Shown here: piece after piece, positions 1-42,832 of the stretch | Numbering within the stretch: position 1 is the first letter of the stretch | Layout: every line of letters begins with the position of its first letter | Virus record (IMG/VR): IMGVR_UViG_3300045283_000099 | Location: 1 to 42,832 of that record | Direction: 5' to 3' (one strand) | Source: a virus | Length of the DNA stretch: 42,832 nt | Program-made: the position numbers and the translations under genes | Notes under the pieces: generated by a model | Told to the model about the DNA's origin: nothing | Databases searched by the model: none | What the model saw: the letters and a program-made list of their open reading frames with translations, nothing else

Positions 1-1283
1 GGGCGGGAAGCGCCCGATCATTTCCGAGGCGGTTGATCGGCGCCAAGGCAGTTTTTTCGGCCGCAGCAAGGTCGAGCCGGTGAAGTACCTGCAATGGAAC
101 CTCACGGATTTTTTCAACATGGGGCAGGACAGCGCCATGTACAGCCTGCTCCCGGTGTTCGCGGCGGACCCGGCGAAGAATCCGAATTGGGCAAGCATGG
201 TTATCGGCTTGGCGGCGGTGTGGCCGATTGCGCCGGGGGATTTGAAGCCGGTGGAATTCCCTCAACTCTATAAAGACAGCATGGCAATGTGCGGCGCGAT
301 TAAGGCGCAAATATTCGAGAGCATGGACGTGAACGACGCCATGTTCGGAAAGATGCCTCAAGGCAGGAAAAACAATGCGGTGATAAGCCAGCAGCAGCAA
401 GAACAGGCAACGAACATATCGGACGCAGCATCAAGATTCGAGGCCGTGATACTTGATCCTTTGATGGAACGCCTGTTTGAATACGATCAGCAATTCAGGA
501 CCGCTAGCATCCTCATCAAGTCGCGCGGGGAAATCGGCGTCAAGGCTTCAATGATTGAAGTGCCGCCGCAGCAATACGGCGAGAAATATTTTTTCCAGTG
601 GCAGGGAACGGAAGCGATCAACGGGCAGCAGCGTCTACAGACACAGTTGGCGTGGGTCAACATCCTCAAGGGAATTCCGCCCGCTCTTTTGGACGGCAGA
701 AGATTGTCCCTCGTTCCGATGCTGGAAGCCGGAACGGAAATGGTGTTCGGTCCAGAGCTCGGAAGCAAAATTCTGATCGACGAAAGAAATCAATTCACGA
801 TTCCTCCGGAAGTCGAGGACGAGCTACTCAACAATGGGTTGCCGGTCGAAGTCCACGACGCCGACGACGATACCAAGCACTTGCAGGACCACATGCGCGC
901 CGCGTCACTGACTGGCGATCCGAACGGATTATTCAAGGCGCATCTTATGGCGCACGGTCAGCAGATACAGCGAAAACGTCAGATGCAGATGTCGCAGCAA
1001 CAACCGGGCGTACCTGGAAGCCCCGGCGGTGCAGGCCAACCCGGCGCTGCCGGAACTCCGAGGCCCGGAGCAGTACCGGGCGGTCCACCAAAGGGGCCAC
1101 AACAACCGCCGGGCATGGTGCATCCTGATAGCGTCATGGACCCGATGGCGCAGGGACGCGGATGAAACTCCCTGCGCCGTCCTTTCTCGGCGTCCGCGTA
1201 GTCGTGGACTTGGATTCCTGTTGGATGGCAGCAAGTCGCGGGTATCTATGGTGGAAACGCATTGTTGTCGGTCCCGCGTTTTT
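1..1283. repeat. Left terminal homology block (diverged copy of 41556-42832)
   Basis: This block aligns end to end with 41556-42832. The first ~99 bases are identical and the last ~120 differ at one position. Between them the copies differ first mainly at synonymous sites, then by many amino-acid changes, and this copy is 6 bases longer. It marks the circular closing point of the assembly; the unit length is about 41,549 to 41,555 bases. The two copies look like strain variants and not an exact terminal repeat. Confidence 0.85.
2..1165 (+). CDS. Portal protein, C-terminal part (variant copy, 5' end cut by window)
   Basis: The frame is open from base 2 to the stop and corresponds to roughly the last 387 residues of the full portal at 40489-42714; the GTG at 80 is an internal valine of that protein. 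The portal forms the dodecameric ring at the head vertex through which DNA is packaged and ejected. The start of the fragment is almost unchanged from the full copy, whereas the middle and the Gly/Pro/Gln-rich tail are clearly diverged, with a two-residue length difference in the tail. The ATG of the following peptidase gene overlaps its stop (1162). Function is assigned from the family-like portal core and from the position next to terminase and capsid genes. Confidence 0.8.
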   Translation, partial: GGKRPIISEAVDRRQGSFFGRSKVEPVKYLQWNLTDFFNMGQDSAMYSLLPVFAADPAKNPNWASMVIGLAAVWPIAPGDLKPVEFPQLYKDSMAMCGAIKAQIFESMDVNDAMFGKMPQGRKNNAVISQQQQEQATNISDAASRFEAVILDPLMERLFEYDQQFRTASILIKSRGEIGVKASMIEVPPQQYGEKYFFQWQGTEAINGQQRLQTQLAWVNILKGIPPALLDGRRLSLVPMLEAGTEMVFGPELGSKILIDERNQFTIPPEVEDELLNNGLPVEVHDADDDTKHLQDHMRAASLTGDPNGLFKAHLMAHGQQIQRKRQMQMSQQQPGVPGSPGGAGQPGAAGTPRPGAVPGGPPKGPQQPPGMVHPDSVMDPMAQGRG

Positions 1284-1575
1284 GCGCCTAACGTTGCCAG
1301 AGCAGAATGCGGTGCTGTCGCACGAAGCCTGTCACTGCAAGCGCTTTCATTTAGAGCGCCGCTTGTTCAGCCTGCCCTTGTTGTTCCTGAATCCATGTCT
1401 CTCGCAGCGCATCGCAGTTTCACACGAGTTCGAGGCCGATGCGTTCGCCGCGCGCCGCGGATTGGGGCCTGAACTGTTGTCCGTCCTCAGGAAACTTCCG
1501 CACGGAGGCAACTTTTATCCATCCCGCAAAGAGCGCGAGGAAGCCTTGAAACGAATCATTGGAGAGCAAGCATGA
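1162..1575 (+). CDS. Minimal M48-like zinc metallopeptidase; candidate head maturation protease
   Basis: This is a 137-residue protein with HEACH at residues 54-58 (HExxH zinc site) and a downstream EFEAD at 89-93 matching the ExxxD third-ligand motif of M48 peptidases (HtpX, Oma1, Ste24). It is far shorter than typical M48 enzymes (around 250 or more) and has only one moderately hydrophobic stretch between the motifs (about 68-80), so it is probably soluble or peripherally bound. It overlaps the portal stop and the next gene (ATG at 1572), the slot where many phages keep their prohead protease. The genes that follow carry a shared N-terminal peptide, which makes processing of that peptide an attractive but unproven role. 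The motifs are seen directly; the maturation role is inference. Confidence 0.6.
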   Translation: MKLPAPSFLGVRVVVDLDSCWMAASRGYLWWKRIVVGPAFLRLTLPEQNAVLSHEACHCKRFHLERRLFSLPLLFLNPCLSQRIAVSHEFEADAFAARRGLGPELLSVLRKLPHGGNFYPSRKEREEALKRIIGEQA

Positions 1576-1916
1576 TTAGACAATTTCTGACGCTGGGCAT
1601 CGGTGCAAGTCAGGCAACGATCACGGGCACGCGCAGGGCAATGGGTTATACCCAAATCCTGAATGCGACCCTTGCCGCGTCCACCGGCATCGTCATGCCG
1701 AACTTGGCGAACTTCCCCGGCATCGTCGTCGGCTATGCCATGATCCAGTCGAACGGCGGCGCGGTGCGCTGGCGGGACGACGGGGTAGCACCTACGGCAA
1801 CGGTCGGGATGCTGATCCCGCTCAGTGGAGAACTTGATTACGCAGGCGATGTTGCCGCGCTGCGCTTCATTTCGTCCTCGGGCACGCCGATTTTGGACGT
1901 AACCGTCTACGCATAG
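1572..1916 (+). CDS. Small tagged virion protein (FLTLG N-terminal peptide)
   Basis: The protein has 114 residues and begins with MIRQFLTLGI, one of six copies in this genome of the tag h-[R/K]-x-[F/Y]-L-x-L-G-[I/V/L]. The rest is short, beta-rich and Gly/Ala/Val-rich, with no recognised family; the size and place between portal and capsid genes suggest a decoration or head-fibre base protein. Its ATG overlaps the stop of the peptidase gene. It ends in a TAG at 1914-1916 that is in frame with the next open frame, so suppression of this amber codon would extend it by over 400 residues. Confidence 0.6.
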   Translation: MIRQFLTLGIGASQATITGTRRAMGYTQILNATLAASTGIVMPNLANFPGIVVGYAMIQSNGGAVRWRDDGVAPTATVGMLIPLSGELDYAGDVAALRFISSSGTPILDVTVYA

Positions 1917-1922
1917 ACCGTG
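1914..1922 (+). other. In-frame amber codon followed by GTG: possible readthrough site
   Basis: TAG (1914-1916), ACC, then GTG (1920-1922) all lie in one reading frame, joining the tagged 114-residue protein to the lectin-like open frame downstream. No Shine-Dalgarno-like stretch is visible before the GTG. Either readthrough makes a fusion, or the GTG is used by termination-reinitiation. Confidence 0.45.
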
Positions 1923-3161
1923 GACCGGCATAACTTAGCGACTGTTTTAAGTGGCGGCCCGTACAACCGCGCCGACATCCGCACCGTCAATATCGGCGGC
2001 TTTGGTCCCGCAGGCGGCGGAGGCGGGGCGACTTCCTTCAACCTTCCGCTAAACGACCTCGGCAACGGTATAGTCAACACGGTTCCGGCGCAGTCAGCGG
2101 GCTCCCCAACTGGGACGTTCACCCGCGCCTCAGCCAACAACTACTGTAAGCTCGCATCGGGCCTGTGGGCGCCTGTGGCGACCGGCATAGCCCGCGCGCA
2201 CTATCTAGGCCGCGACACCGCCGTAGGCCAGTACGGCGGCTACCTGAGCGAGCCTGCGGGCGTGCAGCTTATCCCGACTACTCGCGCCATTCGGGATATG
2301 ACTGATCCAAGTTGGGTAGCAGTTGGCATCACGCCGACGCTCACCGCAACCGGCATCGACGGCGTTCCAAACAGCGCAACCACGCTCACCTGCACCGCGC
2401 CAAACGGAACCATTCTGCAAACTCTCGTGGCTGCGGCAAGTTCTAGGACGAATAGCGCGTTCATCAGACGCAGAACCGGCAGCGGCGCGATTCTGCTTAA
2501 GCAGGGAACGGCAACTCTGGATATCACAGCGAGCCTCTCCAGCGTCATCTTCACGCGCCCGCAGTTGAACGACAACGAACTGAATGTCGCCTACGGCTTG
2601 CAGATGGCGACGAGCGGCGATCAGATTGATGTGGACTTCAACCAGTTCGAGCCGCTCGCTGCAACAGATTTTGCGACAAGCCCGATGGCAAGCGCAGGCG
2701 CTGCAAGAGCTTCGGATGCGCTCACCTTCGCTACCGCCGGAAATATCGATCTGACGCAAGGATCGGTTTATGCCGAAGTGTCTGCGAATTACACCGTGGC
2801 AACTCCCAACAAGATTGTTTTAGCTGCAACGGTCAATGGCAGAATTCTGCATCATGTCGCTACAGGGGCCACGACGCAGAATGCGATGACCGACGGCGCT
2901 ACTATCCTGCAGAAATTCGGGATTCCTGACACAAACGGCGTGGTACGCAAATGGGCAAGTTGTTGGGGCCCGGCAGGAATGTTTATCACTGCGAGCGGGC
3001 TTGCCCCTGCGAACGCCGCATTCGATGGCGCGATGGGAGCGGGACCGAATCTTGAGATTGGACACCTCGCAGGGACACAGCAATTTGGCGGGACCATTAA
3101 AGCCGCGCGCATCTACCCCACTCAATTGAGCAACGCACAACTCCAGGCCTTGACGGCGTGA
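1920..3161 (+). CDS. Lectin-like (LamG/concanavalin-fold type) virion protein or readthrough domain
   Basis: The frame holds up to 413 residues if GTG at 1920 is used. A Gly-rich linker (about residues 27-38) is followed by beta-rich sequence. The C-terminal part, ending in a pattern like EIGHLAGTQQFGGTIKAARI and LSNAQLQAL, resembles the final strands of LamG/concanavalin-like domains common in phage fibres and head decorations. Such domains bind carbohydrate or host surfaces. It has no tag of its own and no clear ribosome site, and the preceding stop is an in-frame TAG, so it may be made mainly as a C-terminal extension of the tagged protein. Fold assignment is from sequence texture only. 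Confidence 0.5.
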   Translation: MDRHNLATVLSGGPYNRADIRTVNIGGFGPAGGGGGATSFNLPLNDLGNGIVNTVPAQSAGSPTGTFTRASANNYCKLASGLWAPVATGIARAHYLGRDTAVGQYGGYLSEPAGVQLIPTTRAIRDMTDPSWVAVGITPTLTATGIDGVPNSATTLTCTAPNGTILQTLVAAASSRTNSAFIRRRTGSGAILLKQGTATLDITASLSSVIFTRPQLNDNELNVAYGLQMATSGDQIDVDFNQFEPLAATDFATSPMASAGAARASDALTFATAGNIDLTQGSVYAEVSANYTVATPNKIVLAATVNGRILHHVATGATTQNAMTDGATILQKFGIPDTNGVVRKWASCWGPAGMFITASGLAPANAAFDGAMGAGPNLEIGHLAGTQQFGGTIKAARIYPTQLSNAQLQALTA

Positions 3162-3204
3162 CCGAGCGCAGCCTCACTCAACCATTTACGATAAGGAGAT
3201 CACG

Positions 3205-3408
3205 ATGGCGCAAATCACACTGACGGCCACAGCAGGCCAAGCCGCAGCCGTGCAGCACGATGTCGGCAAGGCGCTCAATCTCGGACGCGATGCGACGCTC
3301 GCGGAAGTCACTCAGTACGCGCGCGACCAGTTCGAAGCGCTTCACCAGCAAATCTTGCGAAACGAATCCAATGCTGCGCTGGTAATTCCGCCGTTGGCGT
3401 TGACTTAA
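3205..3408 (+). CDS. Small conserved-looking virion-cluster protein
   Basis: This 67-residue protein is preceded by a good ribosome site (AAGGAGATCACG). It starts ITLTATAGQAAAVQHDVGKALNL, followed by a helix with TLAEVTQYARDQFEALHQQIL. Small proteins with this texture occur near capsid genes of podoviruses, but I cannot name a function. It carries no tag peptide. About 70 untranslated bases separate it from the next gene. Confidence 0.6.
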   Translation: MAQITLTATAGQAAAVQHDVGKALNLGRDATLAEVTQYARDQFEALHQQILRNESNAALVIPPLALT

Positions 3409-3480
3409 ATTTGACGCTTTTGCGAATAAAGCGTAGGTTTGTCAAGGTTTTACCCGCGCAACACCACCAAGGAGACCCAC

Positions 3481-4272
3481 ATGCACCGCTTTGCAAACAC
3501 GCTCAAACAGTATCTCACCCTTGGCATTATACAGGCGCCAGCCCTGCAATTCACCGGCGCAATTCCCGATCAAGCCAGTCTCGCCGCGAACATGAACGCG
3601 CTTATCCTCAACGGCCAATCGGCGGCGGGGGGCGTCAATTTCGTGACAAGCGCTGCCGCAACAGCGCTTATCAGCACCCCCGGAATGCTGCTCCTGCGCC
3701 TGACCAATGGCGGCGCGGTCACAGTTACGATCGACTCAGCCTATAACATCGCCAACAATCTGCCGCAGCCGGACACGTTCGGGCAGAAATTCCAGTTCCA
3801 GATCGTCACGAACGCAGCGACCACGGTTGCGACGCCGACGCTATCGGATACCGCCGTCACCCTGGCGGGGACTACGGCAGTCTTGGCGGCATCCTCGCGC
3901 TGGTACCAGGGACAGATCACGCAATTGACGTCGACGACCGGCATCGCCACCACGGCGGGCACCACGTTCGTGTCGCTTGCCCAAGTCGGCACCACGAACA
4001 ATTTCACGGTCACGCTCGGCACGAACGCAATCGTTCCCGTCGTCGGGCAACTGATCTTCTTGAACGTCACGGCGGGCACGCTGCCTTCGGGCTGGTATCC
4101 GATCAACTTGGTCACGAACGCGACGTCATTCGTCATCGCCACGCCGCCCGGAACGGTCTGGACTGCGACCGCCGCGACCGTGGGCACGATCACCGTTGCG
4201 CCGCCGACGTTCTCCCCGCTCATCACGATCACCGGGATGTGGAGCCTAGTCACCGCGACCGCCGCCGTATAG
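3481..4272 (+). CDS. Tagged beta-rich virion protein, possible head decoration protein
   Basis: It has 263 residues from ATG 3481, chosen because AAGGAGACC lies just upstream and because this start exposes the tag LKQYLTLGI at residues 8-16. The remainder is Thr/Ala/Val-rich beta sequence with internal echoes (TTNNFTVTLGTNAIV, TNATSFVIAT), as in capsid-decorating or fibre-like proteins. It forms a row with the tagged genes at 4280, 4829 and 5637. No enzyme motif is present. Its product is probably part of the virion; the exact location on the particle is unknown. Confidence 0.6.
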   Translation: MHRFANTLKQYLTLGIIQAPALQFTGAIPDQASLAANMNALILNGQSAAGGVNFVTSAAATALISTPGMLLLRLTNGGAVTVTIDSAYNIANNLPQPDTFGQKFQFQIVTNAATTVATPTLSDTAVTLAGTTAVLAASSRWYQGQITQLTSTTGIATTAGTTFVSLAQVGTTNNFTVTLGTNAIVPVVGQLIFLNVTAGTLPSGWYPINLVTNATSFVIATPPGTVWTATAATVGTITVAPPTFSPLITITGMWSLVTATAAV

Positions 4273-4279
4273 GTGCGCC

Positions 4280-4780
4280 ATGAAAAACCTCATTTCCCTA
4301 TTGCGTCACTTCCTGCGCCTGGGCGTCACCTTTCCCATTCCGACCGGCATCGTGGCAGACGAGTCGGCGGCGTTCGGCCTCTTTGGCTTGATGCAAGCCG
4401 TGAACTTCACGCTATTCGGCCCGGTGGTGCAAATCACCACAGCCGCAGGCGCGAGTACGGCCGTGACCGCGGCGCAGTTCTGGGCAACCGAGATCGATTT
4501 CAATGCCGGCGCTGGAGGCGGATTTGCTTTGCAACTGCCTTCGACTGCTGCATTGATAGCTGCGCTGCCGCTTTCGATACCGTTGGATGGCACCTACGCC
4601 AAAGTGCTGCACTACAAGAACAACAATGTCGGGCAGACGGGCACGCTGACAGCCGGGGACGCGGGAACCACGATCACCGGCACGGCGACGATTGCAACCA
4701 ACATCGTGCGCATTTTCGTCGTCACGGTGACGAGTCCGACCACGATCACCATTGAGAACTTTGGTGGTCGATCGCTGTAA
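4280..4780 (+). CDS. Tagged small virion protein
   Basis: The protein has 166 residues and begins MKNLISLLRHFLRLGV, a clear copy of the tag. After a proline-containing linker the sequence is beta-rich and ends with repeated Thr/Ile strands (GTTITGTATIATNIVRIF, SPTTITIENFG). It resembles small capsid-decorating proteins in composition, though no family was recognised. It starts 7 bases after the previous stop and lies directly before the scaffold gene. Confidence 0.6.
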   Translation: MKNLISLLRHFLRLGVTFPIPTGIVADESAAFGLFGLMQAVNFTLFGPVVQITTAAGASTAVTAAQFWATEIDFNAGAGGGFALQLPSTAALIAALPLSIPLDGTYAKVLHYKNNNVGQTGTLTAGDAGTTITGTATIATNIVRIFVVTVTSPTTITIENFGGRSL

Positions 4781-4828
4781 CGAATTTTCGACTGGCCGCC
4801 GTCAAGTGGCCGCATTGGAGTAGCACTC

Positions 4829-5626
4829 ATGTTGAAGCAACTGTGGGAACTGTGGAAGCTGTATCTGGTGCTTGGAATTGCGGGCGATGATCCGCCTGCG
4901 GACGATCCTCCGGCTGACGAGCCGCCTGCGGATGATCCGCCTGCGGACGAGCTCCCGGCAGACGATCTTGATAGCCTGATCGAAACCGTCGAAGCAGGCG
5001 GGGACGACAAGGACGATAAGCCGCCAAGCCGGGAAAACGCGGCGATCCGCGACGCGCGAAAGCGTGCCCAGGACGCCGAGGAAGCACGTATCCGCGCGGA
5101 AGCGACGCTCGAAGCCGAGCGGCGCATGCGTCAACCGCAAGCCTATTCCGACGACCAACGCCTCTACGATCAGGAAGAAGCAAGGCTCAGAGCAGACGAT
5201 GCAACGGACCTGGAGAAATGGCAAATCCGCTCGAACCGCACGCTGCGCGCGAACACGCAGGCTGCGAACCGGGCGCTCACCTCCGCCGCCGACATGCAGG
5301 ACAAGAGCGCATTCGACCGGTTGGAAATCTCCAATCCGAAGGTCTACAAGCTCTACGCCGACAAGGTGGAGAAAGCCTTGGGCGAAATGCGAGGGAGGGG
5401 GCAAGATGCCCCCCGCCTAGCGCTCCTGCGCTTCATGATCGGAAACGACGTGATGGAAGGCAAGCTGAAAAGCGGCACCGGAAAGAAGGCATCCACGACC
5501 ACAAGTGAAACACGAAGCACAATCGACCGGGGCAGGAGTCCCGGAGCGCGTTCCGACGTATCCGGCAAAGGCAGGATGTCCGAGCAGGAAAAGCGCCGCG
5601 AGCGGCTAAAAGGCGTGATTATCTGA
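4829..5626 (+). CDS. Putative scaffolding protein, tagged
   Basis: It has 265 residues, with tag WKLYLVLGI at residues 9-17, then a very acidic Pro-rich repeat (about 20-45), and then a long charged helical region with coiled-coil character (RKRAQDAEEARIRAEATLEAERR and onward). The C-terminus is basic (EKRRERLKG). The composition, length and place immediately before the major capsid gene fit an internal scaffold, which guides capsid assembly and then leaves or is degraded. A basic C-terminal end that touches the coat protein is usual for scaffolds. That both the scaffold and the coat protein carry the tag is important for interpreting the tag. Confidence 0.65.
   Translation: MLKQLWELWKLYLVLGIAGDDPPADDPPADEPPADDPPADELPADDLDSLIETVEAGGDDKDDKPPSRENAAIRDARKRAQDAEEARIRAEATLEAERRMRQPQAYSDDQRLYDQEEARLRADDATDLEKWQIRSNRTLRANTQAANRALTSAADMQDKSAFDRLEISNPKVYKLYADKVEKALGEMRGRGQDAPRLALLRFMIGNDVMEGKLKSGTGKKASTTTSETRSTIDRGRSPGARSDVSGKGRMSEQEKRRERLKGVII
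4886..4963 (+). repeat. Tandem (D/E)DPPA-type coding repeat in the scaffold gene
   Basis: About five imperfect 15-base units encode DDPPA, DDPPA, DEPPA, DDPPA and DELPA in a row. The repeat forms a stiff acidic spacer between the N-terminal tag and the coiled-coil part of the scaffold. Units differ at third positions. Confidence 0.8.
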
Positions 5627-5636
5627 AAGGATCAAC

Positions 5637-7049
5637 ATGAGTGCGTTACGCAGTTTCCTGGCCCTGATAGGGTCATTCCTGACGCTCGGCCTAACGAACA
5701 CGAGCCCCGGCTTTGCCGCCGACATCGTTCCCTACATCGCCGATGAAGTTCTGCCGCTCGCGCGCAGGCAGCTTGTCGCCTACCAGTTCGGCGAGCCGAT
5801 CACCCTGGACGTGAACCGGGGCGTCACCTACACGGCATCGCGCTATCAGCGCTTGCCGCTCCCCTTCGCCCCGCTGCAAGAGGGCGTAGCACCCACCGGC
5901 GAAGCCATGACCCTGGCGCAAGTGAGCGCGACGGCGCAGCAGTGGGGCGATCTCGTCCGGCTGACGGACGTGGCGAATCTGACCATTTTCCACCCGCTCT
6001 TTCAGCAGGCGTGCCAGTTGGTCAGTCTCCAGATGCCGGAAACTCTGGAGCGCAATACCTTCAACACGCTCATTTCCGGGACGCAGGTGAATTTCGCCAA
6101 TGGCCGGGCGAACCGCGCCGCGCTGATCGCAACCGACGTGATGTCGCCCCACGAGGCGAACCGCATCTTCGGGAGCATGGCGCAGTATGGCGTGCCGCGC
6201 TTCATGGGGGACGAGCGCGAGGACATGATGATCGAGGCGGGGGCCTACCGCGACCCGTCGAAATCGCCTGCCATGATGCCGCACTACGTGGCGCTTATGA
6301 GCCCGTTGGTTTCTCAGGACATGCGCGAGAATGCGCAAGTCAATACTGCCTGGGCTTTCTCCGACATCAATCGGCTGTACAACAACGAACTCGGGCCCTT
6401 CGGCGGCGTGCGCTACGTCGAAAGCAATATGGTCCCGTTCTGGGTGGGGAATGCGCTTGTCACCGGCGTTGCGGGCGTGGCCGGCGGCTTGGCGACGGGG
6501 AACTTTTTTATCCAAGTCACCGGGAGCCCGTCGCAGACCTCGGTTGAGCAGCAGATTTTCCAGGTCTCAGGCGCGATTGCCGTTGTCGGTCCAAACGGAA
6601 GCATTGCCGTCACACTGCCGACCCTGCCCGGATTCGTGTTCAACGTCTACATCGGCACCACGGCGTCGCCGACGAATCTGGGGCTTTCTGCATCCGGCCC
6701 CGGCGTCGGACCGCTTGCGGGACAAGCAACGCAACTGCCGAGCGGGGCGACCGTCATCATTACCGGCATCGGCGCGGCGCAGACTCCGCCCGCAGCACCG
6801 GCAACGGGCGTCACTGTATTCCCGACCATTTTCATCGGGAATCACAGCTACGGGCAGGTGCTCTTGGAGAACCCGGAATTCCACTACTTGACCGGCGCGG
6901 ATAAGAGCGATCCGAACAATCAAATTCGGATTGTGTCTTGGAAGCTATTCTACGGCTCGATCGTGCTTAATCAGGCGTTTCTGGCACGCTGCGAAAGCAG
7001 TTCCGCCTTTACGCCCGGTTTCTCCTTTGGCACGGTGTTGACTCCTTAG
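5637..7049 (+). CDS. Major capsid protein, N4-gp56 family, with tag and inserted domain
   Basis: It has 470 residues. The stretch from about residue 28 (IVPYIADEVLPLARRQLVAYQFGEP) through EGVAPTGEAMTLAQVSATAQQWGDLVRLTDV, the FHPLFQQACQL region and NTLISGTQVNFANGRANR matches the pattern of N4-gp56-type major capsid proteins. The first ~25 residues are an extra segment holding the tag (SFLTLGL at 13-19). Around residues 270-390 a Gly/Thr/Pro-rich beta-type stretch looks like an inserted surface domain, before the family-like C-terminal part (HSYGQVLLENPEFH to the end). It builds the capsid shell. The N-terminal segment resembles a signal peptide in shape, but secretion makes no sense for a coat protein. 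Confidence 0.85.
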   Translation: MSALRSFLALIGSFLTLGLTNTSPGFAADIVPYIADEVLPLARRQLVAYQFGEPITLDVNRGVTYTASRYQRLPLPFAPLQEGVAPTGEAMTLAQVSATAQQWGDLVRLTDVANLTIFHPLFQQACQLVSLQMPETLERNTFNTLISGTQVNFANGRANRAALIATDVMSPHEANRIFGSMAQYGVPRFMGDEREDMMIEAGAYRDPSKSPAMMPHYVALMSPLVSQDMRENAQVNTAWAFSDINRLYNNELGPFGGVRYVESNMVPFWVGNALVTGVAGVAGGLATGNFFIQVTGSPSQTSVEQQIFQVSGAIAVVGPNGSIAVTLPTLPGFVFNVYIGTTASPTNLGLSASGPGVGPLAGQATQLPSGATVIITGIGAAQTPPAAPATGVTVFPTIFIGNHSYGQVLLENPEFHYLTGADKSDPNNQIRIVSWKLFYGSIVLNQAFLARCESSSAFTPGFSFGTVLTP

Positions 7050-7050
7050 A

Positions 7051-7665
7051 ATGACAAAGAGAAACGACGAACAGCGCGCCGCTTTTAACGCATATATGCG
7101 TCGGTGGCGCGCTGAACATCCTGAGCGCAGAAAGGAGATTGATACGAAATCGAAAGAAAAACATAAGGACAGAGTACGCGCCTACCAAAGAGAATGGATG
7201 GCAGTCTATCGCTCTAAGAATCCAGAAAAAACTAAAGAGATTGCGCGTCGCTCTGCGGAAAAGAACCGAGATAAAATTCGGGCGAAAAGCAAAATCAAAT
7301 ATTACTCAGATGTGGACAAGAGCAGAGAAGAAGCGCGTATTCGGTATCAAAAGAGAGCCGATTTTGTAGCTGCTATGAAACTTGCTTCCGGCTGCGTTGA
7401 TTGTGGATTCAAGGGTCATTCTGCCGCCCTTCACTTCGACCATCTTCCTCAATACGAGAAGAAGTTCAACGTTGGACCGGCCATTCGTTCTAAAAACAAC
7501 AAAGAGTTGTTTGAAGAAATCGCCAAGTGCGAAGTACGCTGCGCCAACTGCCACGCAATCAAAACCGCACAAAGACGCTGTTATGTCGATTTAGAAAGAA
7601 AAGTTGTTCCACGTTTTGAGGGGATGATCGGCTGCGAAATTCCGATTAGCCTTCTCCCATCATAG
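7051..7665 (+). CDS. Free-standing HNH endonuclease
   Basis: This 204-residue protein has a Lys/Arg-rich helical N-terminal half. It is followed by a zinc-bound HNH core: CVDC, then ALHFDHLP (the catalytic His region), and a second CANC-H pair. Its base composition is visibly more AT-rich than the flanking head genes, and it sits between the capsid gene and the next head gene with only 1 and 9 bases of spacing. These are typical marks of a mobile homing-type nuclease beside an essential gene. Its target is not known. Confidence 0.8.
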   Translation: MTKRNDEQRAAFNAYMRRWRAEHPERRKEIDTKSKEKHKDRVRAYQREWMAVYRSKNPEKTKEIARRSAEKNRDKIRAKSKIKYYSDVDKSREEARIRYQKRADFVAAMKLASGCVDCGFKGHSAALHFDHLPQYEKKFNVGPAIRSKNNKELFEEIAKCEVRCANCHAIKTAQRRCYVDLERKVVPRFEGMIGCEIPISLLPS

Positions 7666-7674
7666 GAGCACGAA

Positions 7675-8271
7675 ATGCCACGCGGATACTCAGACCCCCC
7701 GAATGGAGAACCGCCGGAAACTGTCGCGCGCGTCGCGTCGGTTGCCGGAACGAACGGCGACGACGTAAAGGCGCTGCTTGAGCAGATCGCCGACTTGAAG
7801 GCGAAACTCGCCATTGCCGACAAGGAGCGCACGGCATCCGAACAGACCGCGCTGGAACTCGCCGAGCAGCAGGGCAACGGTTTGATGCAGCAGACGACGA
7901 TTCAGGAAATTCCGACCGGGAAAAAGATGAAAGTGCAGCGGCTCGATCACTACGAGACGACCGGCTACAAAGACGACGGGCGTCCGATCCTGAAAGCGAA
8001 GTGGAAAACGGAGGAAGTGCCGACGTTTTTCTACAAGATCGACCTGCCGCCGGTGGGTGGGCTCGGTCTGACGATCAACGGACTGCCTCTATATCACGGC
8101 ACGGTGTACGAATTCGACTTGGACAGCCTGCGCATGGTCAAGGATTTGGTCCACAAGTCCTGGAAGCACGATGCCGACATCCACGGCACGGACGAGAACG
8201 TGTACAGGAAACCCGAGAACCGGCAGATCAGTATGAAGACCGGGCGCATTTCAACTTACCGGGGCGCGTGA
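7675..8271 (+). CDS. Unknown virion-cluster protein
   Basis: The protein has 198 residues. It opens with a charged coiled-coil stretch (VKALLEQIADLKAKLAIADKER, roughly residues 35-60), followed by a mixed domain with VQRLDHYETTGYKDDGRPILKAKW and a segment describing strand-turn-strand texture. It lies between the capsid gene and the connector genes, and its last base is shared with the start codon of the next gene. No family was recognised; a head-associated or assembly role is likely from context only. Confidence 0.55.
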   Translation: MPRGYSDPPNGEPPETVARVASVAGTNGDDVKALLEQIADLKAKLAIADKERTASEQTALELAEQQGNGLMQQTTIQEIPTGKKMKVQRLDHYETTGYKDDGRPILKAKWKTEEVPTFFYKIDLPPVGGLGLTINGLPLYHGTVYEFDLDSLRMVKDLVHKSWKHDADIHGTDENVYRKPENRQISMKTGRISTYRGA

Positions 8272-8672
8272 TGGCCGAGGAAGAACCGACCGTCATCGTC
8301 GCCAGTTTCCAAATCACGAAGTCCATGCCGAATCAATCGCAACTCGTCATCAGCGGGCACTTCTACAACAAGGACGATCCGACTTCGATCAATGCGCGCC
8401 TGGATGAATGGATTGACCGAGCCGAGAGGCAATTCGAGCGCGCGGGCATGGCGCTACGCATCGCACAGCGCAAGGCGCAAGTCGATAACCTGGACCGGAT
8501 CAAGGAACGCTATGCGGAAATGGCACAGCAGGTAGAGCAGGGCGTGAAACTGAAAACGCAGCAATTGGCCGAGTATAAGAACGGTCAAGCAAGCATCAAC
8601 GCCGCGCTGAAAGTCATCAAGCAGATGGACCTGGAAATTGCCGAGACGAAGAAACGGGTAGGGATGGCGTAA
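8271..8672 (+). CDS. Unknown coiled-coil virion-cluster protein
   Basis: It has 133 residues from ATG 8271, which overlaps the preceding TGA. The N-terminal part (VIVASFQITKSMPNQSQLVISGHFY) is strand-rich and the rest is a long helix/coiled coil of Gln/Lys/Glu. The stop overlaps the next start (ATG 8672). I do not recognise the family; tight coupling to the connector gene points to head completion or assembly. Confidence 0.55.
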   Translation: MAEEEPTVIVASFQITKSMPNQSQLVISGHFYNKDDPTSINARLDEWIDRAERQFERAGMALRIAQRKAQVDNLDRIKERYAEMAQQVEQGVKLKTQQLAEYKNGQASINAALKVIKQMDLEIAETKKRVGMA

Positions 8673-9394
8673 TGCTCACGGCTGCGCAAATCTGTTCCAA
8701 AGCTGCTTCAATAGCGAAAGGGCCGGGTTTCTTGCTGCAAGCGGGACAGGACTTGAATTTGGTCTTGGAAGCGTTGGTCATCGTGTTCAATTTGAAAATG
8801 AATCGCGTGACGCACACGCTTACGCTTCCCGCGAACACCTTCGGGCCGCTGCTGTTGCCGCTCGATTACTTGAGGACATACGACCTATTTTTCCCCATGC
8901 CGAGCGCTGGACAGCCGATCACTTCCCCCGGCATTCCGATATTCCTGAATCCGATCACGACGGAGCAAATGGATCGCGAATTCAAAGACCCCTCGACTGC
9001 GGATTGGCCGTATGAATTTTCTACCGACCTATCCCCGCAGGCAGACAATCCGGCTACGCCGGGACTGCTCTTTGTCTACCCGATGGCTTCCGGGCAACTC
9101 GATTTGACGCATCGGTACATGGTGAAGCGCCCTGATATTGCGGCGCCTGAATCAAGCGCGACGATTCCGTGGTTTCCCTATACGGATTATTTGGTTCGCG
9201 CCACGGCATGCAGAGTCATGGAATTAACCGGCGATGATCGCAAGGCCGAATTTGAGGCAGACTGTGCCCGCATGCTCCAACCCTATTTGATTTCTGACGG
9301 GGACGAACAATCAACCGTGCATGAAATCAAGCTCGACCCGCGCCACTTCCGCACGAATCGCTCCCTGCGCTTGACGAAGAATTCTCCAATCTGA
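8672..9394 (+). CDS. Head-completion / tail-adaptor protein (P22 gp4-like position)
   Basis: The 240-residue protein has an N-terminal helical part (AAQICSKAASIAKGPGF, GQDLNLVLEALV) and a central part with YDLFFPMPSAG. A later TDYLVRATACRVMELTGDDRKAEFEADC helix resembles phage head-to-tail adaptor proteins. It directly precedes the large beta-rich hub protein, as gp4 precedes gp10 in P22-like phages. The role would be to extend the portal ring and close the filled head. The assignment rests on order and general shape, not on a diagnostic motif. Confidence 0.5.
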   Translation: MLTAAQICSKAASIAKGPGFLLQAGQDLNLVLEALVIVFNLKMNRVTHTLTLPANTFGPLLLPLDYLRTYDLFFPMPSAGQPITSPGIPIFLNPITTEQMDREFKDPSTADWPYEFSTDLSPQADNPATPGLLFVYPMASGQLDLTHRYMVKRPDIAAPESSATIPWFPYTDYLVRATACRVMELTGDDRKAEFEADCARMLQPYLISDGDEQSTVHEIKLDPRHFRTNRSLRLTKNSPI

Positions 9395-9402
9395 CATGCA
9401 CG

Positions 9403-11043
9403 ATGATCCCGCGCAGCTACAGCATGGATTGCACGCCTTCCGGCATAGTGGATGCGTTCGATTCCAGCGCGTACTTCAAGGGCGCCTGCCGCGCGATAAC
9501 GAACCTGATCTTCGATCAATCTAACCGAGAAATCGTCGTCTCGCGTCCCGGTGTCACGCAACTCACGAACTTCCCCGGCTTCAACACGCCCGGTTTCGTC
9601 TCCATCCAGCAAGTCATCGGCACGCGCATCTACGGGATGCTGCGCACAGCGAGGAATCCCGGTCACGACGAACCATTCGTGTACGACATTCCGAGCGGGC
9701 TATTCATCGCGGTGTCGGGCGTGCTGCTGGCGAACACGCCGCTATCCCCTGCGACGGTCGGACCGTGGACCCCGCCGACCATGGCGAACGTCGGCGTATT
9801 CGTCATCATCACGCATCCGGGGTTCAGCGGCGTAGGTACGGATTTTTTCGGCGTCATCGACATCACGAATCCGGCTGCGCCCGCGTGGTCCTCGCAAGCA
9901 TTGACGACGAACGCGCTGACCGTCATTCCAACGAACGTCGCTAACTTCAACAACCGGGCGTACTTTTCGTTTGCCAACAAGCTCGCCTATTCGGACACGC
10001 TGACGCTCGTTCGCACGCTGGCGACGCAGCAGTTGACCGTGGGCGACGACGGGAAGATCACGGCGCTCTCGGGCTTGCCAATCTCAACCACGTCGTCAGG
10101 TATCATCGGCGCGTTGATGATCTTCAAGGAAAACCAGACGTGGCAACTGACCGGGGACACGGTAACGAGCAATCTGACGCTCACCTTTGCCTCGCTCACC
10201 ATTGGCACGAAGTCCCCCAGGTCGCTCGCGCAATCCCCGCAGGCGCTCTACTTCGCAAGCGCATCCGGCCCGTACTTCATTGACCCCTTCGGCACGGTGC
10301 GCGTGCTCACGCATACGGTTCAGGACACGGACCCCGACATCCAGCAGCCCTTCATCAACGCGACCGAACCCACGCGCACCGCGGCTTCCTACGCGGGATC
10401 GATCTACCGCATCTGCATCCCGACGAGAATAGAACCGAGCGCGACGCGCGCCGACTTCTGGTGGGACGAGCACCGCCGCCGCTGGCATGGCCCGCACACG
10501 TTCCCGTATGACTGCGCTTCATACAACGGTCTGGACTTCATTCTGTCCGACGTGGCGCATCCGGGGATGCTGATTAAAAGCCAGTCGCAGGGGCAGGCGG
10601 GTACGGTGTACGGCGATTTGGGCGTTCCGAACGCATCCACCGTGCTGACCTGCACTTTCCCGAAGACCAACCGCATGACGCAAAAGCAGGTGGTCGAATC
10701 CACCCAAGAACTCTCGGCCTCGGGCGGCTCCGTCGTCTACAACATCGACGCGATGGATGAGCAGGGGAATAGCTTGGATTCAATCGCCTTGAGCATCACA
10801 CCCGGCGGCTTGGTCTGGACCGCTTCGCCCGGCCTGCCACTGTGGGGAGGTGGCGGAGTGTGGTCCAATGCGTTCAAGATTCCGCACGTCTATTCGCTTC
10901 CATGGACAAAGCCGCTCGTGTTTCAGAAGATGGCGATTCAGATTACTTCAAGCCCGTCATCCAACACGGTGCAGATCGGGACGCACTTCGCGCGCTATCA
11001 GGACACCGGATACATGAACCTTACCGCACCGAATATTCCATGA
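9403..11043 (+). CDS. Large beta-rich tail hub / DNA-stabilisation protein (P22 gp10-like)
   Basis: The protein has 546 residues, almost entirely beta-type, with propeller-like recurrent blade signatures such as YGMLRTARNPGHDEPFVYDI, GTDFFGVIDITNP and NNRAYFSFANKLAYSD. Further on come an aromatic TRADFWWDEHRRRWHGPHTFPYD segment and a C-terminal jelly-roll-like region. This texture and the place after the adaptor gene match packaged-DNA stabilisation/tail-hub proteins of the P22 gp10 type, which plug the portal-adaptor channel. The stop overlaps the start of the next tagged gene (11040). Confidence 0.6.
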   Translation: MIPRSYSMDCTPSGIVDAFDSSAYFKGACRAITNLIFDQSNREIVVSRPGVTQLTNFPGFNTPGFVSIQQVIGTRIYGMLRTARNPGHDEPFVYDIPSGLFIAVSGVLLANTPLSPATVGPWTPPTMANVGVFVIITHPGFSGVGTDFFGVIDITNPAAPAWSSQALTTNALTVIPTNVANFNNRAYFSFANKLAYSDTLTLVRTLATQQLTVGDDGKITALSGLPISTTSSGIIGALMIFKENQTWQLTGDTVTSNLTLTFASLTIGTKSPRSLAQSPQALYFASASGPYFIDPFGTVRVLTHTVQDTDPDIQQPFINATEPTRTAASYAGSIYRICIPTRIEPSATRADFWWDEHRRRWHGPHTFPYDCASYNGLDFILSDVAHPGMLIKSQSQGQAGTVYGDLGVPNASTVLTCTFPKTNRMTQKQVVESTQELSASGGSVVYNIDAMDEQGNSLDSIALSITPGGLVWTASPGLPLWGGGGVWSNAFKIPHVYSLPWTKPLVFQKMAIQITSSPSSNTVQIGTHFARYQDTGYMNLTAPNIP

Positions 11044-11930
11044 TTTCACTCCTGCGCGAATTCCTCTTCCTCGGCGTCATCATCCCGCCGCTGCCGAACA
11101 CGATTACGAACGGGCAGACCATTGACGCTGTGCCCGTCATGTCGAACTTCAACTGGATCGTCAGCAACGTCAACACGAATTCGTTCGATCCGACCGCGCC
11201 CGGTCCGATTGGCGGCACGACGCCGGGAGCGGGAACATTCACGGCGATTGTGGCGAACGTGAGCGTTACCGGCGGTACGGGGACGTTCAGCACGCTAGCT
11301 TCGACCGGTAATATTACTTCGACAACGGGCAATATCGTGGCGACGGTGGGCTCTCTCGCGTCAGGGTCAGGCACGACCGGGGTTGCGATCGGCCCCTATA
11401 CCGGAGGCGCCAATTTCGCTATTTATAGCACCAATGTCATCGCGTCAAATTCCAATTTCACGCTTGCAGGAAACGGCGCGACCAACACTTTGAATGGTAC
11501 GGCTTCCGTTAATTTGTCGATCAACAACAACATGATCGTAACTGCTACGGCTACCGGTGCGGCGGTTACTGGCAATTTTTCTGCAACCGCATTCAGGGAC
11601 GATGCCGGCAACCTCCTAATCAGCAGCACGAATCCGACGATTGCAAGCGGCTTCGGAACAGGGCCGGCGATTCTAGCGAACAATACGGCGGCGTTCAAAG
11701 TCACTGTTGGCACAGGCGGACTGGATTCAACCGGTGTAATCACCATGCCGGCCGCGCCTGCCGGATGGGCCTGCCACGTTCTAAATCTGACTGACACAAG
11801 TACCGCGCACATGCTGCGCATGACGGCCATGAGCACGACTTCGCTGACGGTCACGAACTCGATAATCGGCGGTGGCAATCAGCCATTCGGCGTTGCAAAT
11901 GTGCTGCTGTTTCAATGCACGGCCTTCTGA
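11040..11930 (+). CDS. Tagged tail fibre/spike-like protein
   Basis: It has 296 residues from ATG 11040, overlapping the preceding stop; this start yields MISLLREFLFLGVIIPPLP, the sixth copy of the tag. The body is made of repeated Thr/Gly/Ser-rich strands (for example GTFTAIVANVSVTGGTGTFST and TGNIVATVGSLASGSG), typical of fibrous trimeric tail or head-fibre proteins. It is separated from the other tagged genes by about 4 kb of untagged connector genes, which shows that the tag is not simply a local duplication. Confidence 0.65.
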   Translation: MISLLREFLFLGVIIPPLPNTITNGQTIDAVPVMSNFNWIVSNVNTNSFDPTAPGPIGGTTPGAGTFTAIVANVSVTGGTGTFSTLASTGNITSTTGNIVATVGSLASGSGTTGVAIGPYTGGANFAIYSTNVIASNSNFTLAGNGATNTLNGTASVNLSINNNMIVTATATGAAVTGNFSATAFRDDAGNLLISSTNPTIASGFGTGPAILANNTAAFKVTVGTGGLDSTGVITMPAAPAGWACHVLNLTDTSTAHMLRMTAMSTTSLTVTNSIIGGGNQPFGVANVLLFQCTAF

Positions 11931-12672: not shown

Positions 12673-14010
12673 ATGGCGACATTCGACAATACGACCGGCA
12701 GAATGATTCAGGACGCGCCAGCGGGCGGGATGGATATGCAAGGGCTCATGCAACTGCTTCAAGGCTTGCAGTCGCCGCAGGTATCGGCCACGGCGGGCGG
12801 GATGCAGCAGCCGCAGGCCAATTCAGGGAGATGGATTATTCAGGGAACAGCAGGGGGTAACTATCACTTACCTCCTGGGATAGCTGAGAAATCTCAAGCC
12901 TATATGCAGGCAAAGGGAATTTATCCAACTGAGAATGATGCTGTATTCATCAATGATGCTACCGGCGAGGTAAGTCTCAATTCTCCCCCGCCTGGGCAAC
13001 CTTCATGGAATATTGACCGTGGTGGTAATCCAGTCATGGTTACAGACGGGGCTGGAAATATCCAACAGGGTTGGAAGGATGTCCTATCTGCGAACCAAGA
13101 ACGAAACTCCAATCCTTTTGGTCCTGGCCTCGGCGGCATCCTTGGCGGGCTCGCGGCGGGCTCGGCGTTTCTGCCTGCACTGGCTGGCGCGGCAGGGGCC
13201 GCTGGAGCGGGAGCGGGGGCAGGTGGCTATGGTGCTGCTCCCGGCACGCTCCAAGCTGCAAATGCGGTAGGTGCGGCCGGTGGCGATGCCCTTGGATCGT
13301 TCATCGGAGGCAATACCGCGAATTGGGGTCTTGATGCCGCGACCGCAGGCGCAGTTGGTGGTGGCGCTGGCGGGCTTGCGGCGCAAGCTGCCCCCGGCGC
13401 TGGAGCGGGCTCGGGGGCGGCGGCTCCTGCCGCGGGAACAGGGGCAGGCGCTGCTGGAGCGGTCGGCGCGGGCGCCAATGCCTTACAGGCTCTCGGCCCC
13501 TTAAGCACCCTCGCTTCCGGAATAGGGGTTGCGGGCGGACTCCACAATCTCCTGAATCCGGTCAACCCCGGCGCAAACCAGAACCTAATCAACGCGGGAA
13601 ACCAGACCTTCGCCGCGGCGCAAGACCCGCAGAACGCACTATATAACCGCACGCTCCAGCAGGTTCAGGACCAAGCGCGGCAGGCAAGCTCGGTGCGCGG
13701 CATCGGGATGTCGCCCGAAGCGGCCGGAATCGAGAATCAGGCGACCTCGAACTTCAATATCGACTGGCTGAATAATCAGTTGAGCAGGATGCTCGCAGGA
13801 CTTGGCGGCATGACGGGCGCCTATGGCGGCTCTGTGCCTCAGGCGCAATTGGGCCTGAACCAATCGGCCTCGGGCACGAATGCGCTTCTGACCGGGCTCC
13901 AGGGCTTGAAGCAGAACTACAATCAGCCCGGTTCGTGGCTGAGCAACATCTTCGGCGGGAGCACGGCGAGCGCAGCGCAGCCGTCGCTGTACAACTCCGT
14001 GGCGACCTAG
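12673..14010 (+). CDS. Gly/Ala-rich internal virion (ejection) protein
   Basis: The protein has 445 residues. A long Gly/Ala region (about 150-280, repeated GAGAGA and AAPAAGT) could form membrane-active helices. It is followed by a helical part (QNLINAGNQTFAAAQDPQNALYNRTLQQVQDQARQ and so on) of the sort seen in proteins ejected into the host before DNA. It is the first of three large genes in the same reading frame. It ends in TAG, two codons before the next ATG. Confidence 0.55.
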   Translation: MATFDNTTGRMIQDAPAGGMDMQGLMQLLQGLQSPQVSATAGGMQQPQANSGRWIIQGTAGGNYHLPPGIAEKSQAYMQAKGIYPTENDAVFINDATGEVSLNSPPPGQPSWNIDRGGNPVMVTDGAGNIQQGWKDVLSANQERNSNPFGPGLGGILGGLAAGSAFLPALAGAAGAAGAGAGAGGYGAAPGTLQAANAVGAAGGDALGSFIGGNTANWGLDAATAGAVGGGAGGLAAQAAPGAGAGSGAAAPAAGTGAGAAGAVGAGANALQALGPLSTLASGIGVAGGLHNLLNPVNPGANQNLINAGNQTFAAAQDPQNALYNRTLQQVQDQARQASSVRGIGMSPEAAGIENQATSNFNIDWLNNQLSRMLAGLGGMTGAYGGSVPQAQLGLNQSASGTNALLTGLQGLKQNYNQPGSWLSNIFGGSTASAAQPSLYNSVAT

Positions 14011-14013
14011 GCC

Positions 14014-15555
14014 ATGCCGAACTTTTCCGGGGCCGCGCAAGGCTTCCTCGACTTCAACCAGAACCAGCAGCAGCAGCAGTACCGGCAGGCTCTGATCGCC
14101 GAAATGCTGCAAAACATGGCGCTGTCCAAGCAGAAGCAGGACGCCGCGCTACAGCAACAGCAGTTGCAGGCGACGGGCGCGAACTTGGCCGGAAATGCGC
14201 TGCCGCAACTGAGCCCGCCGCCCGCGCCGCCGCAGAACCCGAATCAGCCGCCGGCGATGCCGCCCGGACAGGCGTCTATGCCGATGCAGCAACCGGGACA
14301 GATGCAGGCACCACCGCTGCAAGGCGCACCGCAGGGTGGACCGCAGATGTCGATGGCGCCCGGCATGCAGCCGCAGCCGATGCCGTGGAAACCCATGCCG
14401 AAAGAACCGCCCGGAGGCGGAACACCCCAACCCGGCGGAATGCAGCAACTTGGGCCGCCTCCAACTCCGGCTGAAAGCGTGCGCCAGGTCGATGGCGCGA
14501 TTGAAGGCGGGACGGTCATCCCGTCGAAAAAGCTGCCCGATCCAGCGACGCTCATGCAGCAGTGGCAGAAGGAAGGGCATACGGGCGCCGAGATCATGGC
14601 GGGCCTCGACGCCTACATGGGCGTGTATTCCAAGGTGCAACAGCAGGAAGTCGAAGGGCTCAAGCTGCAACTGAAATTCAAGGAAGATCAGCAGAAGTTC
14701 AAAGAGCAATGGCTAAAGGATAACCGCGAAGAAAGACGGCTGACGCAGGCAGATACGAGAATCGAGCAGGCCGACAAGCGGGAAACCGCGCGGGAAGCCG
14801 AAGCGGTCAAGCGTGACGTGATGGCCGAAAAGCGCATGAATGCGATCATGGCGAAGCAATCGAGTGGGGCAGGCGGCGCATTAGAGCCTGAGGACTTGAA
14901 GTTCATGGCGGGCCAGTACCGGGCCGGGGACAAGTCCGTCATGCAAAACCTTGGGCGCGGTGTTCAGGGGTCGAAAAACATCATTGCCCTGCGCGGCGAA
15001 ATCCGAAAACAATCTCTGGCTGCCGGCGAGACCCCGGAACACGTCGCAATCCGAATCGCCGAATTCGAGGGCTTGAAGGCAGGGGAGCGCACAGCAGGGA
15101 CACGGGAAGCGCAATTGGGCTTTGCCGCGCACGAGCTCGAGCAATTCATTCCCCTTGCCCAGGCAGCATCCGAAAAAGTTTCGCGCACCGCCTTCCTTCC
15201 GCTCAACCGGCTTATCCAAATGGGCGAAAACCAATGGAGCCCGGAGCAGGCAGCTTTTGTCGCCGCCAATCGCGCGGTCATCAATGCGTTTTCTCAAGTG
15301 GCGTCGCGCGGCGTTCCGACCGTCCACAATACGGCGGAAGCCGAAAAGATGCTCAATACCGCTGGCTCCCACAAGGTCTATAAGGCAACGCTCGATCAGT
15401 TAATGGCCGAAGTGAAGGGTGCTTTGAAGGCGCCTGGGCAGGTGCGGGAAGACTTGGCCGACCGGGGAACGAAGCCAGTTGCACGCGCCGAGCCAGGGCC
15501 GACCATAAATCAGCCATCCAAGCAGAAAGCAATCAACTGGAATGACCTGAAATAA
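14014..15555 (+). CDS. Gln/Pro-rich internal virion (ejection) protein
   Basis: It has 513 residues. A Gln-rich helix (NQNQQQQQYRQALIAEMLQ) is followed by a Pro/Gly/Gln/Met-rich low-complexity section (about 65-155), then a long charged coiled coil (about 205-285), and a globular C-terminal half. This mix of low complexity and coiled coil fits a protein packed in the head or core and ejected at infection. The ATG follows the previous TAG with one GCC codon between, without an obvious ribosome site, so translational coupling is likely. Confidence 0.55.
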   Translation: MPNFSGAAQGFLDFNQNQQQQQYRQALIAEMLQNMALSKQKQDAALQQQQLQATGANLAGNALPQLSPPPAPPQNPNQPPAMPPGQASMPMQQPGQMQAPPLQGAPQGGPQMSMAPGMQPQPMPWKPMPKEPPGGGTPQPGGMQQLGPPPTPAESVRQVDGAIEGGTVIPSKKLPDPATLMQQWQKEGHTGAEIMAGLDAYMGVYSKVQQQEVEGLKLQLKFKEDQQKFKEQWLKDNREERRLTQADTRIEQADKRETAREAEAVKRDVMAEKRMNAIMAKQSSGAGGALEPEDLKFMAGQYRAGDKSVMQNLGRGVQGSKNIIALRGEIRKQSLAAGETPEHVAIRIAEFEGLKAGERTAGTREAQLGFAAHELEQFIPLAQAASEKVSRTAFLPLNRLIQMGENQWSPEQAAFVAANRAVINAFSQVASRGVPTVHNTAEAEKMLNTAGSHKVYKATLDQLMAEVKGALKAPGQVREDLADRGTKPVARAEPGPTINQPSKQKAINWNDLK

Positions 15556-42714: not shown

Positions 42715-42832
42715 AACTCCCTGCGTCGTCCTTTCTCGGCGTCCGCGTAGTCGTGGACTTGGATTCCTGTTGGATGGCAGCAAGTCGCGGGTATCTATGG
42801 TGGAAACGCATTGTTGTCGGTCCCGCGTTTTT
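41556..42832. repeat. Right terminal homology block (partner of 1-1283)
   Basis: Aligns with the left end of the window; identical over the first ~99 bases, one mismatch in the last ~120, diverged between. It shows the genome map closes into a circle or is terminally redundant/permuted, with at least two sequence variants present. Confidence 0.85.
42711..42832 (+). CDS. M48-like metallopeptidase, N-terminal fragment (cut by window end)
   Basis: The first ~40 codons of the peptidase seen complete at 1162-1575, with one base change that turns Pro into Ser (MKLPAPSF versus MKLPASSF). The zinc motifs lie beyond the window end. Overlaps the portal stop as in the other copy. Confidence 0.8.
   Translation, partial: MKLPASSFLGVRVVVDLDSCWMAASRGYLWWKRIVVGPAF

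Follow-up and report, generated by a model that had tools for sequence, protein, structure and literature searches.

The 42,832-nucleotide soil-phage stretch analyzed here (positions 1 to 42,832 of IMG/VR virus record IMGVR_UViG_3300045283_000099; hereafter, the window) raises the question of why six of its genes, including those for the putative scaffold and the major capsid protein, open with variants of one short peptide. We propose, with a probability of roughly three in four, that the common peptides serve as assembly leaders (propeptides) and would be cleaved off by an M48-type zinc metallopeptidase that the phage encodes at 1162-1575. The leader itself, its conservation, its covariation within genomes, the fixed position of its junction, the M48 signature, and the co-occurrence of M48 and leader in three coat families are all supported directly by the sequences.

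The six open reading frames (ORFs), all ATG-initiated and on the plus strand, start at 1572, 3481, 4280, 4829, 5637, and 11040. An earlier reading of the window (the original prediction) had placed all six starts and peptides exactly, and its motif counts were reproduced: L-x-L-G-[ILV] in 6/6 carriers, a preceding F/Y in 6/6, and R/K two residues ahead of the F/Y in 5/6. The leaders are MIRQFLTLG (1572-1598), on a 114-residue structural protein (1572-1916) with the proposed junction LTLG^I, where ^ marks the candidate cut; MHRFANTLKQYLTLG (3481-3525), on a 263-residue structural protein (3481-4272); MKNLISLLRHFLRLG (4280-4324), on a 166-residue structural protein (4280-4780); MLKQLWELWKLYLVLG (4829-4876), on the putative scaffold (4829-5626), which has an acidic region directly downstream of the leader; MSALRSFLALIGSFLTLG (5637-5690), on the major capsid protein (5637-7049), a phrog_1357 major head protein with the core start (L)TNTSPGF; and MISLLREFLFLG (11040-11075), on a fibre-like protein (11040-11930) with the core start VIIPPLPN. 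The unnamed carriers are taken to be virion parts because they are located in the structural operon. Leaders have a mean length of 17 residues and are basic, amphipathic, and nearly devoid of acidic residues (0.04 per coat leader). The AlphaFold model of the coat (mean pLDDT 52.7) is not usable, and the helix that it draws for the leader (residues 2-16) was given no weight. The portal protein (40489-42714, plus strand), the protein starting at 1920, and the large proteins at 12673-17301 have no leader in the window. Homologues of the 12673 protein do carry one in two other loci, L231 (9235-10359; MRKPAFLLLLLAYFCPGI) and L015 (near 12338; MRFLRGYLRLGLG), and the set of carriers therefore varies among phages.

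In the 59 predicted proteins of the window (11,798 residues), [FY]LxLG[ILV] has six matches in the first 21 residues and none at the other 10,559 positions. From composition, 0.008 N-terminal matches would be expected (Poisson P about 4e-16), and shuffled N-termini yielded the pattern in a mean of 0.02 genes and a maximum of 2/59. The codons for the common peptide vary among the six genes and the downstream sequences cannot be aligned, which bears out the earlier argument against a copied DNA segment. In many related contigs, the same genes have the leader behind an ATG and a ribosome-binding site, so that a start-site artefact, another possibility that had been raised, is excluded. Motif matches on the opposite strand in the scan of relatives were noise.

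Relatives were collected by a coat-based scan of IMG/VR, which gave 411 encoding stretches, of which 80 loci were kept; a distant coat (L155) used as query returned only 3 loci. The original prediction had named absence of the pattern from relatives as grounds against a tag; in close kin, the genes that are tagged in the window have the leader too, which favors one. In more distant kin, the leader is kept and the junction is altered, to LFPG[IV] in Paraburkholderia-type prophages and to SPG, TRG, SRG, ESQ, or KAQ in others. Within one genome, the scaffold, the coat, and other structural proteins have the same junction, and genomes differ from one another (LTLG^V, LFPG^I, FTRG^V, ESQ^L), as in the coat/scaffold pairs IFTRGV/VFCRGV (L091), VFSRGV/VLSRGI (L093), VFESQL/RLECQV (L097), and FIFPGI/LLFPGI (L180). 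When partners were permuted between genomes at several levels of dereplication, the coat-scaffold covariation had z scores of 10.2 (95%, n=56), 7.6 (85%), 6.4 (80%), and 4.9 (75%, n=13), all with p<=5e-5; the residue preceding G matched as L/L in 20, P/P in 19, and R/R in 4 of the 56 pairs. When six mutually non-homologous protein families were compared across 13 genomes from the window's group, z was 7.2 (0/2000 permutations). In one genome nested among L-type genomes (L022), P stands before the junction residue in all six leaders. Shared ancestry alone would link leader types but would not put the same residue on unrelated proteins, which implies that one partner recognizes them all. The earlier suggestion of a sorting, assembly, or cleavage tag holds in kind, a cleavable leader fitting best, and fails in its fixed peptide, R-x-F-L-x-L-G-I: what is conserved is a leader, basic and amphipathic, with a genome-specific junction at its end, and the literal LxLG belongs to the window's subgroup.

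The junction also coincides with the place where untagged homologues begin. Coats of the leaderless outgroup and of members without M48 start where the leader ends (G^VTNQS versus M-A-TN or MG-ITNQS). In the 11040 family, five residues separate the junction from the LPN core, and in the tagless MAIIGTLPN the distance from residue 2 is also five. The corresponding distance in the 1572 family is eight residues in 8/8 tagged homologues and seven to eight, from residue 2, in tagless ones; in the 4280 family, it is six residues versus five to six in tagless homologues. A tail of outlying values in the distance table (0, 1, and 12-29) was an artefact of the regular expression or came from non-alignable variants.

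The probable partner of the leaders, overlooked in the original prediction, is the gene at 1162-1575 (plus strand), which has ATGA overlaps at both ends, with the portal stop on one side and the first tagged start on the other. Its 137-residue product, the proposed leader peptidase, is by sequence a zinc metallopeptidase of family M48 whose catalytic signature is intact: the HExxH zinc motif (HEACH, residues 54-58), the third zinc ligand in a downstream helix (E89, in EFEAD), D93, and R125 are all present, and 25 diverse homologues with 26-53% identity to the window protein all retain H54, E55, H58, R67, E89, D93, G100, and R125. Pfam M48 (PF01435) was matched by 19/25 homologues at E<=0.01 (best 1.8e-9), with the window protein itself under the cut-off (17.5 versus 20.3 bits), and the profile of the phage family matches Ste24p (E=7.6e-7). 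The AlphaFold model of the window protein (mean pLDDT 96) has a gluzincin fold, with Ste24/ZMPSTE24, BepA, and abylysin as the nearest solved structures (VIA-align Z: BepA 10.3, ZMPSTE24 10.2, 3c37 9.5, abylysin 6.4); Foldseek with this model reached an E value of 2e-3 only. The M48 gene is found in every first-scan locus spanning portal to coat, and in a diverged subgroup (L086-L104, L165-L190), the order M48-scaffold-coat is kept with the three genes adjacent. Its position in the head module, between portal and coat, is that of prohead proteases, and the window proteins scanned (1162-7049) gave no Pfam or PHROGs match to any of the established prohead proteases (T4 gp21, HK97 gp4, or lambda gpC types). 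A tblastn search of sequenced phage isolates with the M48 proteins of the window and of L065 gave no match. In one homologue (L017, 871-1350), HExxH and ELDAD are separated by a hydrophobic insertion that resembles the membrane insertion of HtpX/Ste24.

Presence of the enzyme and presence of the leader go together in the main lineage. Among 57 dereplicated coats, the leader is found in 29/29 of those with M48 and in 0/12 of those without M48 within at least 6.8 kb upstream, loci in which the coat had less than about 6.8 kb of upstream sequence being excluded from the negative set. Leaderless coats start with MATN.., MAVN.., MAINQ.., or MGITNQ.., and the scaffolds seen there have no hydrophobic start. 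Searching whole records with the M48 profile gave 0/22 hits among leaderless, outgroup, or exceptional records versus 10/10 among positive controls.

The M48 profile also matches phages with other coats, namely L142 and L146 (phrog_283) and L238 and L239 (phrog_212). Single M48 queries from the second lineage matched only themselves, and an alignment of three sequences found L237-L239. In all four phages, a membrane-anchored M48 is encoded between the minor head protein and the scaffold, and the coats have hydrophobic leaders of 30-50 residues that end in SQGLVAG^ANTIT, KQGLVLG^GNTLT, SSGLVLG^GLTLV, or SRGIVLC^GLTLV. Good ribosome-binding sites precede the coat leaders of L238 and L239, in which the gene after the coat likewise starts with a leader. 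Coats of relatives without M48 begin with MANTIT.. or MALTL.., and in the phrog_283 and phrog_212 lineages, the M48 profile gave hits in 3/3 cases versus 0/9 among M48-less kin. On balance, we favor a broader view, in which M48 and short hydrophobic leaders would form a portable capsid-maturation module, present in at least three coat families that are each otherwise leaderless (phrog_1357/N4-gp56-like, P22-like phrog_283, and phrog_212). Such a module, whose site of action is probably the inner membrane, would bring a metalloprotease class into phage head maturation for the first time, and its recognition junctions would vary together over all substrates of one genome.

In the proposed mechanism, the leader would be a basic amphipathic helix of 9-18 residues ending in a genome-specific recognition junction (in the window, L-x-L-G followed by I/V/L). 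Leaders may bring the scaffold, the coat, and several accessory structural proteins together in the growing prohead, possibly at the inner face of the cell membrane. The M48 enzyme, whose gene occupies the site of the prohead protease gene in other phages (portal to scaffold/coat), would then cut after G (G^[VIL]), leaving mature N-termini that would match those of leaderless relatives. Coat and scaffold share a cleavage-like motif, as do substrates of a prohead protease, in the form of their covarying leader junctions. From these comparisons, we infer that M48 is the cutting enzyme and that the leader is missing from the virion, as well as the timing of cleavage and the role of the membrane. 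Leader-guided co-assembly, perhaps at the membrane, is proposed because in T4 the inner membrane is the site of prohead assembly and release follows proteolysis (PMC9026906), and data on SPN3US, which support membrane-associated prohead assembly, agree (PMC10052503).

The alternative that survives best, although we regard it as unlikely, is that the leader is a permanent, uncut docking tag by which one partner (scaffold, portal, or membrane) is bound through an N-terminal helix, M48 having a separate role such as degradation of host proteins. Covariation within genomes requires only a common partner, a basic amphipathic helix could bind the adjacent acidic scaffold, and encapsulin cargo peptides offer a parallel in that short hydrophobic peptides recruit proteins to HK97-fold shells. 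However, coat and scaffold are both tagged, so that neither is an obvious receptor, and a docking tag would not account for a junction at a fixed distance from the core that coincides with the start of leaderless homologues. Nor would it account for the distribution of M48, which occupies the protease position of the head module, occurs in all leader-bearing portal-to-coat loci examined, bar the exceptions noted below, and in three leader-bearing coat families, and is absent from leaderless kin.

A far less probable reading is that host signal peptidase cleaves the leaders, which would then be Sec-type signal peptides or membrane anchors. They are hydrophobic and basic, the coat leaders of the phrog_283 lineage (L142, L146) resemble signal peptides, and a Rhizobium phage, RHph_X2_24, has such a leader without M48. 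But the window leaders are short (9-18 residues), sit on a coat and a scaffold that must remain cytoplasmic, and by reading end in L-x-L-G-[IVL] rather than in an A-x-A-type site, in line with the doubt that the original prediction had expressed about a signal peptide; phage-specific covariation of the junctions would not be explained by a host enzyme either. Separately, N-termini like those of classical signal peptides, ending in AQ or ALAA, were seen on structural-operon proteins at L229:5195, L093:8775, L013:7345, and L020:4322. Nothing was found in support of chance, of copied DNA, or of wrong start codons, and all three can be dismissed on the match statistics, the differing codons, and the conserved start sites given above.

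Several observations weigh against leaders cut by M48. All M48-positive coats form one clade of the coat tree (SH-aLRT 98), so that co-occurrence in the main lineage amounts to about one evolutionary event; M48 and leader were probably gained there once, and M48 could have been co-inherited for another reason. The coats at L197:3301 and L207:6905 have a hydrophobic N-terminal extension, and no M48 was found in their incomplete contigs. Some junctions deviate, such as LSACI in the L086 scaffold with LYPGL in its coat, and in some contigs single families (1572- and 4280-type) lack the leader. The P22-type coat of RHph_X2_24 (MW960031, L223, 3950-5188) has a signal-peptide-like leader (MRKNILLGGSVLAAPFIGHLSAYAS), and an M48 profile search of that whole record found no M48. 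The scaffolds of L197 and L207 are leaderless. L197 branches as the sister of the M48-positive clade and may represent either an intermediate state or a loss.

The original prediction knew of no described tag of this form, a statement that does not stand in view of two precedents. The internal proteins of T4 (IPI-IPIII) have common N-terminal capsid-targeting sequences that are removed by the prohead protease gp21 (PMC9026906), and head proteins of giant phages (SPN3US gp245; phiKZ and 201phi2-1 homologues) have N-terminal propeptides with one shared motif, A-x-E, mostly of 111-254 residues and in two cases of only 20-24, as shown by mass spectrometry (PMC10052503). As in T4, several head proteins of the window begin with one short common sequence (six carriers, conserved in kin), for which targeting to the prohead and removal by a phage protease would be the counterparts; unlike in T4, the motif is different, the leader is also on the scaffold, the coat, and the fibre-like protein, and the proposed enzyme is an M48 zinc peptidase instead of gp21, and we do not claim homology to the T4 sequences. 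The likeness to giant phages lies in a common motif at the N-termini of many head proteins, but these phages have mostly longer A-x-E propeptides and no metalloprotease in that role. With HK97, the window shares a protease gene between portal and coat and an N-terminal part of the coat ahead of the core. The HK97 delta domain is a scaffold of roughly 100 residues, removed by a serine protease (gp4), whereas the window has a short leader and a separate scaffold. The enzyme resembles M48 peptidases (Ste24/ZMPSTE24, BepA, HtpX) and archaeal minigluzincins (abylysin, jannalysin/selecase) in HExxH, the downstream E ligand, and the fold, and differs from them in being phage-encoded, compact (about 110-150 residues), located in a head module, and directed, as proposed, at virion proteins. 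To our knowledge, phage head-maturation proteases are all of the gp21, HK97, or ClpP-SppA types, and we found no M48 or minigluzincin head protease in the open-access literature. Removable N-terminal targeting peptides are thus already known (T4, giant phages), and the M48 enzyme in that role would be the new element.

If correct, processing of short shared leaders by a metalloprotease would add a catalytic class to phage head maturation, with substrates readable from sequence across a large group of uncultured soil phages that has cultured Paraburkholderia prophage carriers, among them P. tropica LMG 22274 and P. phenoliruptrix LMG 22037 (L229 and L230). Concerted change of the junction over up to six unrelated proteins would amount to a natural experiment in protease-substrate coevolution, and the leader could serve for loading cargo into capsids. 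Start sites or signal peptides that are assigned automatically to such coats may be misleading.

Two further features of the window were noted. Its ends (1-1283 and 41556-42832) are about 78% identical and contain the second half of the portal gene together with the beginning of the M48 gene, which looks like the closure of a circularly permuted genome with two strain variants. Directly 3' of the coat gene lies an ORF for an HNH-like endonuclease (7051-7665); it has no match in the relatives examined and is a probable homing insertion.

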